Source: Actinomycetota bacterium
GTDB taxonomy: Bacteria; Actinomycetota; Nitriliruptoria; Nitriliruptorales; Nitriliruptoraceae
DNA length: 64,000 nucleotides
Assembly: GCA_019347575.1 (NCBI GenBank)
Contig: JAHWKY010000006.1
Coordinates: 124,001-188,000 of the forward strand
Direction: 5' to 3'
The notes under the pieces: model-generated
The model's input: only the letters and a program-made list of their open reading frames with translations
What the model was told of the DNA's origin: nothing
The model's database searches: none
Position numbers and translations under genes: made by a program
In this document: one piece after another, positions 37,660 to 45,015 of the stretch
How positions within the stretch are numbered: the stretch's first letter is position 1
Layout of the letters: each line of letters begins with the position of its first letter

Positions 37660-38433
37660 TCAGCGGGCGGTGTTGCGCTCCCAGATGATGCGCAGGCCCT
37701 TGAGGGTGAGCCACGGGTCGTGGTGGTCGATGGTCTCGCAGGCCTCGAGCACCGCCGGGGCGAGCCCGCCCGTGGCGACTGTCGTCGTACCAGGACCGAG
37801 CTCGTCACGCATCCGTTGCACGACCGCATCGACCTGACCGGCGAAGCCGTAGACGATCCCGGACTGGAGCGCGGCTGTGGTGGAGCGACCGATCGCGGAG
37901 GGCGGGGTGAGCGTCTCGACATCCGGTAGTCGGGCGGTGCCCTTCACCAGCGCCTGCGTCGAGGTGTTGACACCCGGGGCGATCGCCCCGCCCACGAACT
38001 CGCCGTCCTTGCTCACCGCGTCGAACGACGTCGCCGTCCCGAAGTCGACCACGACCGCCGGTCCGCCGTACAGCTCGAAGGCCGCGACGGCGTTGGCGAT
38101 CCGGTCTGCGCCGATCTCCTTGGGGTTGTCGTAGCGCAGCGCGATCCCGGTCCGGGTACCTGGCTCGACCAGGATCGGCGGCGAGTGGAAGTAGCGGTCG
38201 GTCATGGCCCGCAGGCGCTCGGTGATCAGCGGCACGACGCTGGCGATGACGACCCCGTGGAGGTCGTCGTCGAGGCCGAGTCGCTCGAACGCGAGGAGGC
38301 CCTGGATCATCAGTGCCCACTCGTCGGAGGTCCGGGCCGAGTCGGTCGAGATGCGCCAGTGGTACGCCAGCTCCGCGCCCTGGAACACGCCGAGGACGGT
38401 GTTGGAGTTGCCGACGTCGACCGCCAGCAGCAC
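37660..38433 (-). CDS. coaX: Type III pantothenate kinase
   Basis: 257 residues, ASKHA fold. LLAVDVGNSNTVLGVF binds phosphate; GADRIANAVAAFELYGGPAVVVDFGTATSFDAVS and GGAIAPGVNTSTQAL are the family motifs. It phosphorylates pantothenate, first step to CoA, and is insensitive to CoA feedback. It is 3 bases from the nadC stop and belongs to the panC-panD-nadC group. Confidence 0.96.
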   Translation of the reverse strand: MLLAVDVGNSNTVLGVFQGAELAYHWRISTDSARTSDEWALMIQGLLAFERLGLDDDLHGVVIASVVPLITERLRAMTDRYFHSPPILVEPGTRTGIALRYDNPKEIGADRIANAVAAFELYGGPAVVVDFGTATSFDAVSKDGEFVGGAIAPGVNTSTQALVKGTARLPDVETLTPPSAIGRSTTAALQSGIVYGFAGQVDAVVQRMRDELGPGTTTVATGGLAPAVLEACETIDHHDPWLTLKGLRIIWERNTAR

Positions 38434-38436
38434 CGG

Positions 38437-40449
38437 TCAGTCCCCGTTCTGCACGCGCGGGTGCCGGGCGAACAGACCCATCTCGCTCGGCGAGCGGGGC
38501 TTGACGGTGGGCACCTCCGAGGTGTCCTCGAGCTCCGACCTCTCGGTCCACTCGTCATCGTCCGGACCGTCGCCGTCGGTCGGCTCCGGTTCCGCTGCCG
38601 TCGCCTCTTGGGCGAACTCGTCGCCGCGTGGCGGCGGTTGGTCGGACGGGGCGACGCCTCCCTCGGTGGTCTCGGGTTCGGGGGCCTCGGGCTCGGGAGC
38701 CTCGGGGTCCGGCGCCGTGGCCTCGGGGATCGCTGGCTCGGCCGGAGCGTCGGCTTCCGGAGAACTGGCCTCGGGGACCGTTGGCTCGGCTCCATCCTCG
38801 GTCTGGGGACGACGGGCAGCGAGCGGCGGCCCGGCGCTCCTCACCGGACCATCGTCGTCGAACACGGACCAGTCGACGTCATCGTCCTCGAGGTCGAGCG
38901 TCCGCTCCAACGCCGCGACGGTCTCCTCGGAAGGGGCAGGCGGCTGCCGTCCAGAGTCGGCTCCGCGCTGGGGTTCCGGCTCGGGCTGGCGCTCCGGTTC
39001 CGCAGGGGGCTCGGACTCGGGTTCCGGCTCGGACTCGGGTTCCGTTTCGGGCTCAGGCTCGGGCTCGGGTGGGCGCTCCGGCTCCGCGGGAGGCTGCGGC
39101 TCGGGCTCGACCTCCGGGGCAGGCGCGGTCTCCGATGGGGCCTCCACCGCGGGTGCAGGTTGCGCCTCGGGGACCCCCTCGGGGGCCGCCTCGGGTACCG
39201 CCTCGGCCTCCACATCCGGCTCGGACGCGGCGTCGGGCGGCATCTGGGGCTGCGGCGCGGAGCGGTTCGGATCGAACAGCGCCCCGCTTGCAGCGACGGT
39301 CCCCGCGTCCGTGGGCGAGGTCGTCGACCGCGGGTGGGGGATGGCGGACGGTGAGGCGGACGGCACCTCGGCGCTCTCGACGTCGAGGGAGACGTCGAGG
39401 TGCTCCGCGGAGTGCGTCAGCGCCCCGACCGAGATGCGGTCGACACCGGCTTCGGCGTAGGCGCGGGCGTTGTCGAGCGTGATGCCGCCCGAGGCCTCCA
39501 GACGGGCATGCCCTGCGGTGAGCTGGACCGCGTGGCGGACCTGCTCGACCGAGAAGTTGTCGAGCAGGATGTCGGTCGCCCCCGCGTCGAGGGCGACCTC
39601 GAGTTCGGCGACCGACGTCACCTCGATCTGCACCGACGTCGCCCCGGCTCGCGACAGCGCCGCCGACACGGCGGTGCGGAGGTCGCCGACGGCGGCCACG
39701 TGGTTGTCCTTGACGAGGATCGCGTCGTGCAGCCCGAGCCGGTGGTTCGCGCCTCCCGCGGCGCGGACAGCGGCCTTCTCGAGCAGACGCAGACCCGGCG
39801 TCGTCTTGCGCGTGTCGCGCACGCTCGCGTCGGTCCCCGCGACCGCCTCCACGTAGCGCGCGGTCGTGGTGGCGATGCCGGACAGGTGGCTCAGGAAGTT
39901 CAGGGCGCAGCGCTCGGCGGTCAGGATCGAACGCAGCGGCCCCTGCAGCGTCGCGATGGTGGCGCCGGCGGCGACGTGCTGGCCGTCTTCGACGACCGGG
40001 CTGACCTCGACGCGAGCGTCGACCTGGCCGAAGACCTCGACCAACGTGGCGACACCGGCGACGACGCCCTCGGTCCGCGCGACGATGCGGGCGGTCCCGA
40101 CGAGTCCAGGCTCGAGCACCGCCAGGGACGTGACGTCTCCACGGTCGCCGAGGTCCTCGGCGAGGGCGCGTGCGACCGCGCGGCGGCTCGCGCGCTGGAG
40201 GTCGGAGTCGTCCAGTTGGGGCTCGTAGACCGGGATGTGCGCCCGGGGGGCGACCGATGACGGCTCGAACGCCGGCTCGGCGACGGGCTCGGGTTCCGCG
40301 GATGGTTCGGGTTCGGCGGGTGGCTCCGCTGCAGCGTCGGTCGGCGCCGGTCCGACTGGGGGGACCTCGTACTCGAGCTCAGCACCATCGGTCGTCCAGT
40401 CGAGAGGCTCGTCGGCCTCGTCGTCCTTCTTGCCCCTAAGCCACCGCAC
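38437..40449 (-). CDS. nadC: Nicotinate-nucleotide pyrophosphorylase with long acidic tails
   Basis: 670 residues against about 280 for the family. Residues about 82-355 are a complete quinolinate phosphoribosyltransferase: [76 protein letters not shown], and [13 protein letters not shown]. Residues 1-80 are acidic and rich in EPEP; residues about 356-670 are a low-complexity Glu/Pro/Ala tail ending in a short ordered-looking [13 protein letters not shown]. The ATG overlaps the panD end by 14 bases. It makes NaMN from quinolinate; the tails are of unknown use. Confidence 0.9.
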
Positions 40450-40816
40450 CCGCGATCTCGACTCCCGTTCGGGTCACCTGGTTCTGTTCGTCCACGAAGA
40501 CCACCGTGGGTTCGTGCTGTCGCGCCTCAGCATCGTCGAAGTCCGCGTAGCTGATGATGATGACGCGGTCGCCAGGATAGACAAGCCGTGCGGCGGCACC
40601 GTTGAGGCCGATGACACCGCCGCCACGCTCGCCGGGGATGACGTAGGTCTCGAGCCGTGCGCCGTTGTCACAGTCGACGATCTGCACCCGTTCGTTGGGC
40701 AGCAGATCCGCGGCCTGCATCAGGTCGGGATCGATCGTGACCGACCCGACGTACGCCAGGTTCGCCTCGGTGACGGTGGCGCGGTGGATCTTGGACTTCA
40801 TCAGCGTGCGTCGCAC
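40436..40816 (-). CDS. panD: Aspartate 1-decarboxylase
   Basis: 126 residues. Self-processing site in AYVGSVTID (Gly-Ser cleavage giving the pyruvoyl group), [14 protein letters not shown] at the start and [21 protein letters not shown] are standard. It makes beta-alanine for pantothenate. GTG at 40816 has GGGAGG upstream and gives the conserved [14 protein letters not shown] start. Confidence 0.96.
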
Positions 40817-40862: not shown

Positions 40863-41807
40863 TCAACTGGTCGCTGCGAGCAGATGCTCCTCGTCCGACT
40901 CGTCCCCGACGACGACGTTGTCGATCAGTCGGGCCCGGCCAACGTAGGCCGCCACGGCCACCAGCCACGAACCTGTCGCGGTCCTCTGCGCCTCCTCGCG
41001 GTCGCCCTCTTGGCGGTCACCGTCGGGGGGCTGCAGCGTGTCGGGGTCGACGACCTCGACGTACTCGGAACGGACGCTGGGGTTCGATGCCAGGGTATCG
41101 CTGACGACCTCCCGCAGCACATCGGGGTCAGGTGAACGCCCCGCATCACGCGCTTCCCTGGCCGCGAGCACCGCCTCCCGAAGGCCCCGCGAGATGGTCG
41201 TGGCCGCGGCCCGCTCGTCGTCGTCGAGGTACGCGTTGCGACTGCTCCTCGCCAGCCCGTCGGACTCGCGCACCGTCGGCACGCCCACCACCTCGACCGG
41301 CACGTCGAGGTCGGCGACCATCCGCCGGATCACCTGCAACTGCTGGAAGTCCTTGCGGCCGAAGAACGCGACGTCGGGCTGGACGAGGTTGAACAGCTTG
41401 GCGACGACGGTCGTCACCCCGTCGAAGTGCCCCGGCCGGCTCGCCCCGCACAGGCCCTCGGTGAGGCCCGCCACCGAGACGGTCGTCCTGACGGGGCGCG
41501 GGTAGACCTCCTCGACCGTCGGCGCGAACACGAGATCCGGGCAGTGGCCACCCAGCGACGCCAGCTGCGCTTCGTCTCCCTCCAGATCGCGTGGGTAGGC
41601 ATCCAGATCCTCGCCCGGTGCGAACTGCAACGGGTTGACGAAGATGCTGACTACGACGAGGTCCGCAGCGGGGCACGCCGCCTCGACCAGCGCGAGGTGC
41701 CCGGCGTGCAGCGCGCCCATGGTGGGCACGAGTGCGACGCGGCGTCCGTCGAGGCGGGCGGTTGCGATCGCCGTGCGCAGCTCGGCGACGGCGACGATCC
41801 GCCTCAT
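40863..41807 (-). CDS. panC: Pantothenate synthetase
   Basis: 314 residues. VALVPTMGALHAGHLALVEAA holds the HxGH adenylation motif; VVSIFVNPLQFAPGEDLDAYPR and FFGRKDFQQLQVIRRMVADL are further signatures, and SRNAYLDDDERAAA lies near the end. It joins pantoate and beta-alanine with ATP. A 30-residue acidic insertion (LQPPDGDRQEGDREEAQRTATG) near the C-terminus is unusual. The start overlaps the DUF2520 stop by 4 bases. Confidence 0.95.
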   Translation of the reverse strand: MRRIVAVAELRTAIATARLDGRRVALVPTMGALHAGHLALVEAACPAADLVVVSIFVNPLQFAPGEDLDAYPRDLEGDEAQLASLGGHCPDLVFAPTVEEVYPRPVRTTVSVAGLTEGLCGASRPGHFDGVTTVVAKLFNLVQPDVAFFGRKDFQQLQVIRRMVADLDVPVEVVGVPTVRESDGLARSSRNAYLDDDERAAATTISRGLREAVLAAREARDAGRSPDPDVLREVVSDTLASNPSVRSEYVEVVDPDTLQPPDGDRQEGDREEAQRTATGSWLVAVAAYVGRARLIDNVVVGDESDEEHLLAATS

Positions 41808-42688
41808 CCTCCGCCTCCCAGGGCTGCCTCCAGCGCGGCCACCTGGTCCTCGGCGAGCGACGGGCGCACCTGGTCGAGGATCACCCGGGTCAGCGCACGG
41901 TAGGCGGTGGCGAGCTCCGGTAGGTCGGCATCGAGGACCTCGAGGTGTCGGGTGATCGTGCCGGCGTCACCGCGGGTGACCGGGCCGGTGAGGGCGGCCG
42001 CGCCGCGTTCCACGGTGTGCCGCGTCGAGGCCGTGACGAGCGGACCGATGAACGCCACCGGGTCGTCGATGCCCGCCGCCAGGAGCAGCCGGCGCGCGAC
42101 CGTGACGACCGCCCCGACCGCGTTGCTGCCCACCGTGAGTCCCGCGTGGTAGAGCAGCCGTGCGGCATCGGGTAGGTCGTGGGGCGTCCCGCCCAGCTGC
42201 TCGACGAGATCGCGCGCCCACGCGCGGTCGGCGGGGCGCGTGGTGACCGCCCAGGCCGCGCCGACCAGGACGTCGGGGTCGGCGGTCGCATCGGGGACCG
42301 TCTGGGCTGGGTGACAGGCGGCGGTGCGCGCTCCCGCGAGGGCGGGGCGCTCGAGCACGTCGAGGCCGAGGGAGCCTGCGACGTGGATCATCCGCTGTCC
42401 CTCGTGCACGGCATCCGCCGCGGCCAGCGCGTCAGCGACCGTGGGGACCGCATCGTCCGGGGTGCTGATCACCACGAGGTCGGCGCCCCGCGCCAGCTCG
42501 GCGAGGTCGCGGTCGCTGCCGCTGCGTGCTCCTGCGAACCTTGCCGTGAACCGTTCACGCGACTCCAGACCGCCGCCGCCGGCGGCGACGATCCGGTGGC
42601 CGGCCCGCGTCAGCCCGGCGGCCAGCAACGTGCCGACCCGGCCGGGGCCGATGACGGTGACGGTGCCTCGAGGCAGCCGGTCGTTCAC
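41804..42688 (-). CDS. Rossmann-like / DUF2520 oxidoreductase next to panC
   Basis: 294 residues. N-terminal NAD(P)-binding fold starts VTVIGPGRVGTLLAAGLTRAGHRIVAAGG; the middle has VHEGQRMIHVAGSLGLDVLER ... AGARTAACHPAQTVPD; the C-terminal all-helical DUF2520 domain includes YHAGLTVGSNAVGAVVTVARRLL and LTGPVTRGDAGTITRHLEVL. It is 6-phosphogluconate-dehydrogenase-like. The GTG at 42688 overlaps the folK stop (GTGA). Its place directly before panC suggests ketopantoate reductase activity, a hypothesis. Confidence 0.85.
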   Translation of the reverse strand: MNDRLPRGTVTVIGPGRVGTLLAAGLTRAGHRIVAAGGGGLESRERFTARFAGARSGSDRDLAELARGADLVVISTPDDAVPTVADALAAADAVHEGQRMIHVAGSLGLDVLERPALAGARTAACHPAQTVPDATADPDVLVGAAWAVTTRPADRAWARDLVEQLGGTPHDLPDAARLLYHAGLTVGSNAVGAVVTVARRLLLAAGIDDPVAFIGPLVTASTRHTVERGAAALTGPVTRGDAGTITRHLEVLDADLPELATAYRALTRVILDQVRPSLAEDQVAALEAALGGGG

Positions 42689-43329
42689 CGCTCCACCCCC
42701 GGGGGCGGACCCACCGGACGCTCCCACTCGTCCGCGAGGAACGCTCCCGGGCCGGGAGGACCGGCGGGGCGCTCGGGGCCCGATCCCGGCAGCCCAGCCA
42801 GGCGCACGTGCAGCTCCACACCCTCGATCGGGGCCATCTCGGCGACGATCGAGCTCAGACGGGTGCCGTCAGGGAGCTCCCCCGCAGGCATGACCTCCAT
42901 CAGCGGCACGAGCACGAACGCGCGCTCGCGCAGCCGGGGATGCGGCACGACGAGGTCCTCGTCGTCGATCGTGCGGTCGCCGTAGAGCAGGATGTCGATG
43001 TCGAGCGTCCGAGGACCCCAGCGCTGCTCACGCGACCGGTCCCGTCCGTGGCGTTCCTCGATCGCCTGGACCGTCGTCAGCAGCCGCTGCGGGGCGAGGG
43101 TCGTGCGCACGGCCACGACCGCGTTGAGGTAAGGATCCTGCTCGATGCCTCCGACCGGCTCGGTATCGTACACCCCGGAGAGCGCGGTGACGTCGATGCC
43201 CTCGGCGTCGTGCAGGTCGCGGACCGCCGCCTCGATCGTGTCCAGTCGCGCCCCGACGTTGCTGCCCAGTCCGAGGTAGGCGTCGACGGGCGTTCGCCGT
43301 CGCGGCCGGAGCAGGTCGCGGAACCTCAC
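42685..43329 (-). CDS. folK: HPPK: 2-amino-4-hydroxy-6-hydroxymethyldihydropteridine pyrophosphokinase
   Basis: 214 residues. DAYLGLGSNVGARLDTI, NAVVAVRTTLAPQRLL, EERHGRDRSREQRWGPRTLDIDILLYG and VVPHPRLRERAFVLVPL are all present. A Pro/Gly tail of about 35 residues follows. GTG 43329 overlaps the folB stop as GTGA. It makes the pyrophosphate used by FolP. Confidence 0.95.
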   Translation of the reverse strand: MRFRDLLRPRRRTPVDAYLGLGSNVGARLDTIEAAVRDLHDAEGIDVTALSGVYDTEPVGGIEQDPYLNAVVAVRTTLAPQRLLTTVQAIEERHGRDRSREQRWGPRTLDIDILLYGDRTIDDEDLVVPHPRLRERAFVLVPLMEVMPAGELPDGTRLSSIVAEMAPIEGVELHVRLAGLPGSGPERPAGPPGPGAFLADEWERPVGPPPGVER

Positions 43330-43688
43330 GTCCGTTCCCGCCGGATGGTCACGGAGATGTCGTGGACCGGGACGGCGACCGGGGCGTCGGGCTTGTGCAC
43401 GGTCACCTCGGCAGCGTGGACCCGGTGCTCCTCGAAGCACGTGTCGAGCACGGCGACGGCCAGGCGCTCGATGAGGTCGTAGGGTCCGCTGGTCGCGGCG
43501 CGGTGGACACGCTCCGACAGCGCGGCGTAGTCCACCGTGTCGTTGAGGTCGTCGGAGGCGCCGGCGGCCGACAGGTCCACCTCGACCACGACATCGATCA
43601 GGAACCGCTGACCCTCCTCACGCTCGCGTGGTAGGACGCCGTGGTACGCGAAGACCTCCATGCCCTCGATGGCGATCCGGTCCAACAC
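43326..43688 (-). CDS. folB: Dihydroneopterin aldolase
   Basis: 120 residues. IAIEGMEVFAYHGVLPREREEGQRFLIDVVVEVD and YDLIERLAVAVLDTCFEEH are typical, with the catalytic Glu and Lys (HKPDAPV) present. It cuts dihydroneopterin to the hydroxymethyl pterin for FolK. Confidence 0.95.
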   Translation of the reverse strand: MLDRIAIEGMEVFAYHGVLPREREEGQRFLIDVVVEVDLSAAGASDDLNDTVDYAALSERVHRAATSGPYDLIERLAVAVLDTCFEEHRVHAAEVTVHKPDAPVAVPVHDISVTIRRERT

Positions 43689-43815: not shown

Positions 43816-45015
43816 TCAGGTGGCGGTGGCGATGGCGTGGGTGAGGCGGAGCGCACGGACCGTCTCGGCCACGTCGTGGACCCGGACGATGGCAGCCCCG
43901 CAGAGGGCAGCGTGAGCGGCGGAGACCACGCTGCCGATGAGACGTTCCGCCGGCTCCTCGACGCCCGTGATGCGACCCAGGAACGACTTGCGCGAGGTGC
44001 CCACGAGCACCGGGCGTCCGAGCGAGGTGAAGTCTCGCAGGCTGCGCAGCAGCGCGAGGTTGTGGTCGACGGTCTTGCCGAACCCGATGCCGGGATCGAC
44101 GATCACACGGTTGCGGTCGATACCGACGTGGGCGGCACGCTCGACCGTCTCGGCGAGGAAGTCGAACACCTCACCGACGACGTCCGCGTAGCGCGGGTCG
44201 CGCTGCATCGTGCGGGGCGTGCCGCGCATGTGCATCGCGACGTAGGGCACGCCGAGTTCAGCCACGGTCGGCAACATCAGCCCATCGAGAGCGCCTGCGG
44301 AGATGTCGTTGACGAGGGCGGCGCCGCCTTCGACGGCGGTGCGGGCGACCTGAGCCTTCGACGTGTCGACCGACACCATGATGCCGTCGGATGCCAGCGC
44401 CTCGACCACGGGCATGACCCGTCGCAGCTCCTCGGCCTCCGGGACCGGGTCCGCCCCGGGCCGGGTCGACTCGCCACCTACGTCGATCACCTGGGCGCCC
44501 GCCGCGACCAGCTCGCGGGCGTGCTCGATGGCCGCCTTGAAGTCGCCGTCGGGATCGAACAGCACGCCGCCGTCGGAGAAGGAGTCGGGGGTGACGTTCA
44601 CGACGCCCATGACCAGCGGTCCCTGCGAGAACGCGAACGTGCCGACCGCGGTCACGAGGGGAGGTGGCGGCTCGAGCCACGCATCGACGGCGTAGTCGAC
44701 GGTCGCCTCGATCAGCTCGGCCAGCTCGGGTCCACCTGCGCGCCCCGCCGCGCTGGCGATCCGGGAGGGGGTCGAGACGGTACGGAGGCGGTCGCCCTCG
44801 ACGTCGACCTGCCCCCCGCCGGACGCGATGGCGTCGCCGACCTGCTGTGCCTGCGGCAAGCGGCTGATGACGACCCGTACGCCGCCGCCGTCACGGACGA
44901 GCGTGGCGTCCTCGACGCGGACGAACGGGCCCTCGGGGCGGGGGGGGCGGCCGGGCAGAACGGTCCCTTCGGCGGCCGGCGACGGGACCCTACCGCGCGT
45001 CCCCGTCACTAGCAC
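43816..45015 (-). CDS. folP: Dihydropteroate synthase, N-terminally extended
   Basis: Up to 399 residues. The DHPS barrel spans about 130-399: PLVMGVVNVTPDSFSDGG, GAQVIDVGGESTRPGAD, VSVDTSKAQVARTAVEGGAALVNDISAG, VAMHMRGTPRTMQ, VIVDPGIGFGKTVDHNL, VLVGTSRKSFLG and AAIVRVHDVAET. The 100-odd residue N-terminal part (VRVVISRLPQAQQVGDAIASGGGQVDVEGDRL) resembles the extra domain of long-type DHPS; the exact start among several GTG codons is open. It joins pABA to the pterin. Confidence 0.93.
   Translation of the reverse strand: MLVTGTRGRVPSPAAEGTVLPGRPPRPEGPFVRVEDATLVRDGGGVRVVISRLPQAQQVGDAIASGGGQVDVEGDRLRTVSTPSRIASAAGRAGGPELAELIEATVDYAVDAWLEPPPPLVTAVGTFAFSQGPLVMGVVNVTPDSFSDGGVLFDPDGDFKAAIEHARELVAAGAQVIDVGGESTRPGADPVPEAEELRRVMPVVEALASDGIMVSVDTSKAQVARTAVEGGAALVNDISAGALDGLMLPTVAELGVPYVAMHMRGTPRTMQRDPRYADVVGEVFDFLAETVERAAHVGIDRNRVIVDPGIGFGKTVDHNLALLRSLRDFTSLGRPVLVGTSRKSFLGRITGVEEPAERLIGSVVSAAHAALCGAAIVRVHDVAETVRALRLTHAIATAT

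Follow-up and report, generated by a model that had tools for sequence, protein, structure and literature searches.

A 64,000-nucleotide stretch from an Actinomycetota bacterium of the family Nitriliruptoraceae (GenBank assembly GCA_019347575.1, contig JAHWKY010000006.1, positions 124,001 to 188,000 of the forward strand; here called the window) carries a gene for a DUF2520 protein between folate and pantothenate biosynthesis genes. A preliminary description had put this gene forward as a candidate ketopantoate reductase. We analyzed the gene, its surroundings, and its relatives in two phyla and conclude that it very probably encodes a PanG-type (DUF2520), NAD(P)H-dependent ketopantoate reductase, an activity that we infer from sequence and genome comparison.

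The DUF2520 gene (41804 to 42688, minus strand) runs from a GTG start codon at 42688 to a stop codon at 41804 to 41806 and comprises 294 codons; an alternative, longer frame from GTG 42727 would encode 307 amino acids and extend into folK. The start overlaps the stop codon of folK by 4 bases (GTGA), and the stop overlaps the panC start by 4 bases (ATGA). Because of these overlaps, the gene is likely translationally coupled to both neighbors. The coordinates and the coupling to both neighbors agree with the preliminary description, as does the order panC-panD-nadC-coaX downstream, where each gene was confirmed with Pfam and NCBIfam models. All of these genes lie on the minus strand. Upstream are folP (43816 to 45015; TIGR01496 over cut-off), folB (43326 to 43688; TIGR00525 over cut-off), and folK (42685 to 43440; TIGR01498 over cut-off, matching from residue 54). 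The true start of folK is probably inside the listed open reading frame (ORF), the first 38 codons of which overlap folB. Downstream follow panC for pantoate-beta-alanine ligase (40863 to 41807; PF02569 at 337 bits and TIGR00018 over cut-off), panD for aspartate 1-decarboxylase (40436 to 40816; TIGR00223 over cut-off), nadC (38437 to 40449; TIGR00078 over cut-off at residues 92 to 356 of 670), and coaX for type III pantothenate kinase (37660 to 38433; PF03309 at 243.5 bits). Past the matched catalytic region, the nadC frame continues for about 310 residues as a low-complexity C-terminal tail with much proline and glutamate, and it ends just before coaX. Two relatives from the window's family (loci L059 and L060) show the identical order folP-folB-folK-DUF2520-panC-panD-nadC-coaX.

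Both domains proposed beforehand, a Rossmann NAD(P) domain followed by a DUF2520 domain, were recovered by Pfam well above the cut-offs. The Rossmann-like model PF10727 matched with an expectation value (E) of 4e-15 (56 bits versus a cut-off of 23) and DUF2520 (PF10728) with 7e-29 (100.5 bits versus 25); F420_oxidored also matched (E = 3e-8). Renumbered to the 294-residue form, the predicted Rossmann fold covers residues 4 to 127 (42308 to 42679), with a GxGxxG motif at residues 14 to 19, and the helical DUF2520 domain covers residues 146 to 268 (41885 to 42253). The protein did not match PF02558 (ApbA) or PF08546 (ApbA_C) at E ≤ 0.001, the C-terminal domain of ketol-acid reductoisomerase (PF01450, IlvC), or any NCBIfam model, including that of TyrA (prephenate/arogenate dehydrogenase). 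An AlphaFold2 model built with 64 sequences had a mean predicted local distance difference test score (pLDDT) of 87.9 and a predicted template modeling score of 0.81.

Conserved residues were read from 115 aligned DUF2520 proteins; one alignment dropped 4 of 56 sequences, namely the duplicates L011 and L029 and the fragments L037 and L056, and alignment A3 took in 63 of the 80 Bacillota loci described below. D78, H102, G105, H126, G235, and R239 were invariant, H181 and N189 were each kept in 114 proteins, and D241 was kept in 113, with glutamate in the other 2. All seven polar residues of the family (D78, H102, H126, H181, N189, R239, and D241) are present in the window protein. His102 belongs to an HxxG motif (42383 to 42385), His126 to an HP motif (42311 to 42313), His181 to a YHA motif (42146 to 42148), Asn189 to an SN motif (42122 to 42124), and Arg239 and Asp241 to a GPxxRGD motif (41966 to 41974). 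His126-Pro127 may resemble the HP motif of prephenate dehydrogenases. At position 39, after the second strand, where the residue may bear on cofactor choice, 68 of the 115 relatives have arginine and 12 have lysine; the window protein has glycines at positions 37 to 40, and its residues 37 to 42 were modeled at a pLDDT below 50.

From these features the following route can be proposed. The DUF2520 protein would reduce the keto group of 2-dehydropantoate, the product of PanB, to (R)-pantoate, with C2 of ketopantoate accepting a hydride from NAD(P)H in the Rossmann cleft. The conserved His181 and Asn189 of the helical domain, together with His126, may hold and protonate the carbonyl oxygen, and the invariant Arg239 may hold the carboxylate. 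PanC, translated by coupling from the next gene, would join (R)-pantoate to beta-alanine supplied by PanD, and CoaX would phosphorylate the resulting pantothenate.

The preliminary description had regarded ketopantoate reductase as the sole pantothenate step otherwise missing here. This has to be corrected: panB is also absent from the window, and the single panB match of the genome lies on contig C5. The idea that the genome lacks PanE was likewise abandoned, since two ApbA/PanE-family proteins exceed the TIGR00745 (apbA_panE) cut-off of 141.35 bits with 147.7 and 163.1 bits. Both align with solved 2-dehydropantoate 2-reductases, and ilvC is present in the same genome outside the window. The check for a PanE elsewhere, one half of the refuting condition named in the preliminary description, therefore came out positive, although neither ApbA/PanE-family gene is near panB or panC: ApbA_C was found in the whole-genome search only on contigs C79 and C38, whereas panB and panC are on C5 and C6. 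Since PanE-family genes and ilvC exist in this genome, the case must rest on comparison across genomes.

The alternative that survives best assigns ketopantoate reduction to IlvC or to either ApbA/PanE-family protein; the DUF2520 protein would then duplicate their function or use another substrate of the same pathway, a related 2-keto acid or lactone such as ketopantolactone. Besides the family matches, it can draw on Corynebacterium glutamicum, which uses IlvC for ketopantoate reduction and, as a control in our search, gave no PF10728 match. We nevertheless regard this alternative as unlikely. The ApbA gene on C38 sits among ORFs that look CoA-transferase-like and dehydrogenase-like (read from the ORFs, with no family search), the one on C79 sits on a contig of 6.2 kb, and the distribution of the genes across genomes, given in the following, also speaks against it. 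The two ApbA/PanE-family proteins and IlvC may rather be possible back-ups than the main route.

A sample of 197 Actinomycetota genomes was drawn evenly, with a completeness of at least 90% requested; for this and the second phylum, gene places were copied by hand from the search tables. DUF2520 occurred in 123 genomes, panC in 169, ApbA_C in 68, ilvC in 181, and panB in 148 (146 as counted, with G176 [E = 4e-4] and G135 [E = 5.5e-11] scored negative; in the tally, one match of the 148 is under the cut-off). All but 3 of the 123 DUF2520 genomes also had panC. In 14 of the DUF2520 genomes panC was matched and its place not listed; among the 106 with a listed place, panC was within 3 kb of DUF2520 in 98, and in 96 of these 98 pairs it lay downstream on the same strand. 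With all listed panC places and 55 of the listed panB places entered, DUF2520 was near one of these two pan genes in 103 of 108 genomes, these positive genomes spanning 34 families, versus 1 of 53 for ApbA_C. ApbA_C was also rarer among panB genomes, with panB present in 37 of the 68 genomes with ApbA_C compared to 109 of the 129 without it. Among the 142 genomes with both panB and panC, 100 had DUF2520; 76 of these were without ApbA_C, and 7 of the 76 were without IlvC as well. The same holds within the window's family: its 7 listed DUF2520 genomes all carry panB and panC, and ApbA_C is absent from 6 and present only in the window's genome. It is these 76 genomes, the 6 of 7 in the family, and the rarity of ApbA_C near pan genes that argue against ApbA or IlvC as the regular enzyme. 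Two further members of the family had no DUF2520 match. One of them (G094) also had no match to panC or panB; in the other (G183), the panC match begins 44 bases from the contig end, and the upstream gene may be missing from the assembly. In a tree of DUF2520 proteins without an outgroup, the Arthrobacter and Tsukamurella proteins fall among the sequences of the window's phylum, which is the basis for calling the sampled phylum Actinomycetota here.

The same neighborhood was found in Bacillota. A contig scan whose query was an alignment of two proteins, one from an Enterococcus faecium plasmid and one from Monoglobus, yielded 219 relatives. The best 80, by their titles and tree labels all from Bacillota, were inspected together with up to 4 kb of flanking sequence per side. 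Pan genes adjoin DUF2520 in 77 of these 80 loci, which had been chosen by likeness to pan-operon proteins: panB, panC, and panD in 64, panB and panC in 8, panB only in 4, and panC and panD in 1. The tie between DUF2520 and pan genes outlasts rearrangement, since in some Ruminococcus-type loci the pan genes are reversed in orientation, giving a divergent layout. ApbA_C was absent in 26 of 40 genomes picked from the 80 loci. In contrast to the window, folK, folP, and folB occurred in a single locus each among the 80, so that the folate link of the window's gene looks like a lineage feature.

Since these loci were selected by pan-operon similarity, a second sample of 149 Bacillota genomes was drawn evenly. 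DUF2520 was present in 74 of them, 73 of which had panC, at a distance of at most 1.5 kb in 69 of the 73. ApbA_C was present in 52 and lay near panC in none of the 38 that have panC, again arguing against an ApbA-type enzyme as the main reductase. The 98 genomes with panC comprised 51 with DUF2520 only, 16 with ApbA_C only, 22 with both, and 9 with neither, i.e., the two families avoid each other (Fisher p = 0.004, not corrected for shared ancestry). Three Bacillota genomes (G244, G286, and G323) showed weak or split DUF2520 matches in long frames of 409 to 572 codons with panC still within 1.5 kb, possibly a divergent or fused form of the protein. On the E. faecium plasmid NZ_CP066401.1 (L044, 3983 to 6950), a DUF2520-panB-panC-panD operon is flanked by insertion sequences, and no other reductase is annotated in the 8.7-kb stretch around it; 105 of the 130 plasmid records that match the window protein are from Enterococcus. 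In the two phyla sampled, it is DUF2520 rather than PanE/ApbA that accompanies pantothenate synthesis.

A natural experiment is provided by Actinomycetota genome G060, a single contig of 3.1 Mb in which DUF2520 is present and panB and panC are unmatched. Its DUF2520 protein (L051, 5549 to 6463) has glutamine at the position of His181 and aspartate at that of Asn189 and is the only one of the 115 aligned proteins to differ at either position. It also has arginine at position 234 and glutamine at position 248, the latter shared with two other proteins; all four positions are otherwise highly conserved. The gene ends 13 bases ahead of the lysS frame; upstream of it lies a PH-domain gene, separated from it by a methyltransferase-like gene on the opposite strand. 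In Tsukamurella, panC-panD-coaX and a rhodanese gene separate DUF2520 from lysS. The most economical interpretation is loss of the pathway genes, with the reductase left behind under altered selection. This single case is the outcome predicted if the family acts on ketopantoate. Among the DUF2520 genomes, G193 is the one other case that lacks both panB and panC; it is a draft, 93% complete, and its match is partial. DUF2520 proteins as short as about 240 residues occur at loci L052, L053, and L070, from families f26 and f40; no panC, panD, or fol homolog was found in the stretches around the first two, and the third has panC and panD. Taken together, the neighborhood in two phyla, the co-occurrence with panC, the occurrence in genomes without PanE and in some cases also without IlvC, and the residue changes in G060 support the initial proposal of a ketopantoate reductase.

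Several observations weigh against this assignment. The two ApbA/PanE-family proteins of the genome, being over their family cut-off, could do the step themselves. Across Actinomycetota, 31 of the 142 genomes with panB and panC have neither DUF2520 nor ApbA_C, and since 30 of these 31 have IlvC, IlvC can probably suffice for ketopantoate reduction. Moreover, DUF2520 and ApbA_C showed no avoidance of each other in this phylum (p = 0.83 among the 142 genomes and p = 0.37 among the 169 with panC, by Fisher tests that do not account for shared ancestry), so that strict replacement of one by the other is unsupported there. A further 20 Actinomycetota genomes with DUF2520 and panC were counted panB-negative, G176 with its match at E = 4e-4 among them, which is unexpected if PanB supplies the substrate of the reductase. 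ApbA_C is present in 18 of these 20, and in 18 the distance between DUF2520 and panC is at most 3 kb; family f18 contributes 8, which are all of its DUF2520-positive genomes. H181 and N189 were intact in those that were read. In one example (G015, L058), DUF2520 and panC stand with nadA, a gene for a flavin adenine dinucleotide (FAD)-binding protein, nadC, and coaX; L057 and L012 are others. Such genomes would have either an unrecognized ketopantoate-forming enzyme or uptake of ketopantoate. Finally, the apparent tie of the window protein to the characterized PanG proteins FTT1388 and EF1861 is made up of a published statement and of Enterococcus relatives at 19 to 27% identity.

The predicted structure was compared with solved ones. 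The best matches were 3d1l (Z = 19.8, root mean square deviation [rmsd] 2.9, 243 residues aligned) and 2i76 (Z = 18.0, rmsd 2.8, 233 aligned), which sequence comparison also placed nearest among solved structures (E = 4e-11 and 1.5e-6, respectively). Third came a Rossmann-like protein of C. glutamicum (3dfu, Z = 16.6), and tied with it at Z scores of 15 to 16.5 were glyoxylate reductase, prephenate/arogenate dehydrogenases, 3-hydroxyisobutyrate dehydrogenase, ketol-acid reductoisomerase, and others. Solved PanE structures were not among the 50 structure matches listed, which is no evidence of differing folds. The spread of these matches would suit another 6-phosphogluconate-dehydrogenase-like enzyme, such as a prephenate/arogenate dehydrogenase, pyrroline-5-carboxylate reductase, or glyoxylate reductase, that merely resides in the operon, and an Enterococcus relative indeed has weak prephenate dehydrogenase matches, far under the cut-off. 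However, the common fold says nothing on the substrate, the two best matches are uncharacterized proteins that are relatives by sequence as well, and the lack of any NCBIfam match together with the pantothenate neighborhood in both phyla makes such an enzyme very improbable. Least probable is a regulator or coordinator linking the folate and pantothenate pathways. PMC3317503 (2012) suggested such a role for Rv3603c of Mycobacterium tuberculosis, proposing a regulatory link and tying the family to folate genes in Actinobacteria and Firmicutes. The coupling to folK and panC in the window would suit it, but pan genes predominate around the gene in Bacillota, and the full or near-full invariance of the seven polar residues is what an enzyme would show. 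With fol genes nearly absent from the 80 Bacillota loci inspected, a folate-linked regulator was rejected as the main role.

While the single gene in the window adds a member to the known PanG family, specialist attention is better directed at the wider pattern in two phyla. PanE/ApbA is the family by which the ketopantoate step is annotated, yet it is hardly ever near the pathway genes in the two phyla sampled, and the family that does adjoin them is still labeled a "domain of unknown function." We favor, with moderate confidence, the broader view that DUF2520 (PanG) is the main ketopantoate reductase throughout Actinomycetota and that most proteins annotated as PanE/ApbA do other things. If so, Rv3603c, and not the dispensable and unverified Rv2573, would be the physiological enzyme of M. 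tuberculosis at this point in the vitamin B5 pathway. Renaming DUF2520 would then offer a direct explanation for panE being dispensable in this species (PMC7770189) and indicate a different candidate drug target. Many pathway reconstructions would also lose what looks like a gap.

Rv3603c (COG5495) is described in PMC3317503 as a hypothetical protein encoded in a conserved operon with panC and associated with folate genes, and by that description it resembles the window gene in both respects. The observation that DUF2520 and pan genes are neighbors is thus already known; the Firmicutes folate association reported there is not shown by our 80 Bacillota loci. Deletion of leuD and panCD in M. tuberculosis was accompanied by higher levels of CoaX, PanB, and Rv3603c (PMC6710366); the rise of Rv3603c and CoaX could partly be a local effect, since their genes flank the deletion. 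For M. tuberculosis PanE (Rv2573), PMC7770189 states that it is unverified and non-essential, with no growth loss on knock-down. The same paper applies the tag Rv3603c to coaX, apparently in error. In the limited collection of papers available, in part, to us, no statement of Rv3603c as a ketopantoate reductase was seen. The DUF2520 protein of Corynebacterium ulceribovis, by contrast, is called a homolog of Francisella PanG FTT1388 and of EF1861 in PMC4572677. While the preliminary description had mentioned PanG as a separate, non-PanE alternative, this statement puts DUF2520 and PanG in the same family, and the window protein would therefore be a member of a known enzyme family, although one that is seldom annotated as such. 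Francisella PanG as a ketopantoate reductase is backed by PMC4572677, PMC4207893, PMC5449765, and PMC4494066. The name has also been given to Bacillus subtilis YkpB, a PanE relative with the same proposed reaction (PMC11487621). As B. subtilis, a control in our search, had no PF10728 match, the name PanG covers two different families.

Among known systems, the closest comparison is with the PanG proteins themselves. Homology of the window protein to the pan-operon proteins of E. faecium, Enterococcus avium, and Enterococcus raffinosus was found, at 19 to 27% identity to the Enterococcus proteins depending on the alignment. The Enterococcus relatives are encoded in DUF2520-panB-panC-panD operons, and the residues invariant in alignment A3 include D78, H102, H126, H181, N189, R239, and D241. 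Francisella and Enterococcus faecalis loci were not among the matches listed in two contig scans, one giving the best 80 of 219 and the other, with a single protein as the query, confirming no relative; no Francisella protein was among the matches listed in a search via a Legionella plasmid protein. Miller et al. (2013) reportedly showed FTT1388 of Francisella tularensis and EF1861 of E. faecalis to be ketopantoate reductases. The window gene differs from these in being coupled to fol genes and in that its host also has ApbA and IlvC. Nearest both by sequence and fold are 3d1l (BF3122) and 2i76 (TM1727), the entries of which say only putative oxidoreductase and hypothetical protein. PanE/ApbA proteins (PF02558 and PF08546) catalyze the reaction predicted here, while the window protein has no match to either of their domains. 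Both kinds of protein belong to the same broad superfamily of reductases with a Rossmann and a helical domain, and the conserved residues of DUF2520 proteins are histidine, asparagine, and arginine, in contrast to the lysine/glutamate pair of PanE.

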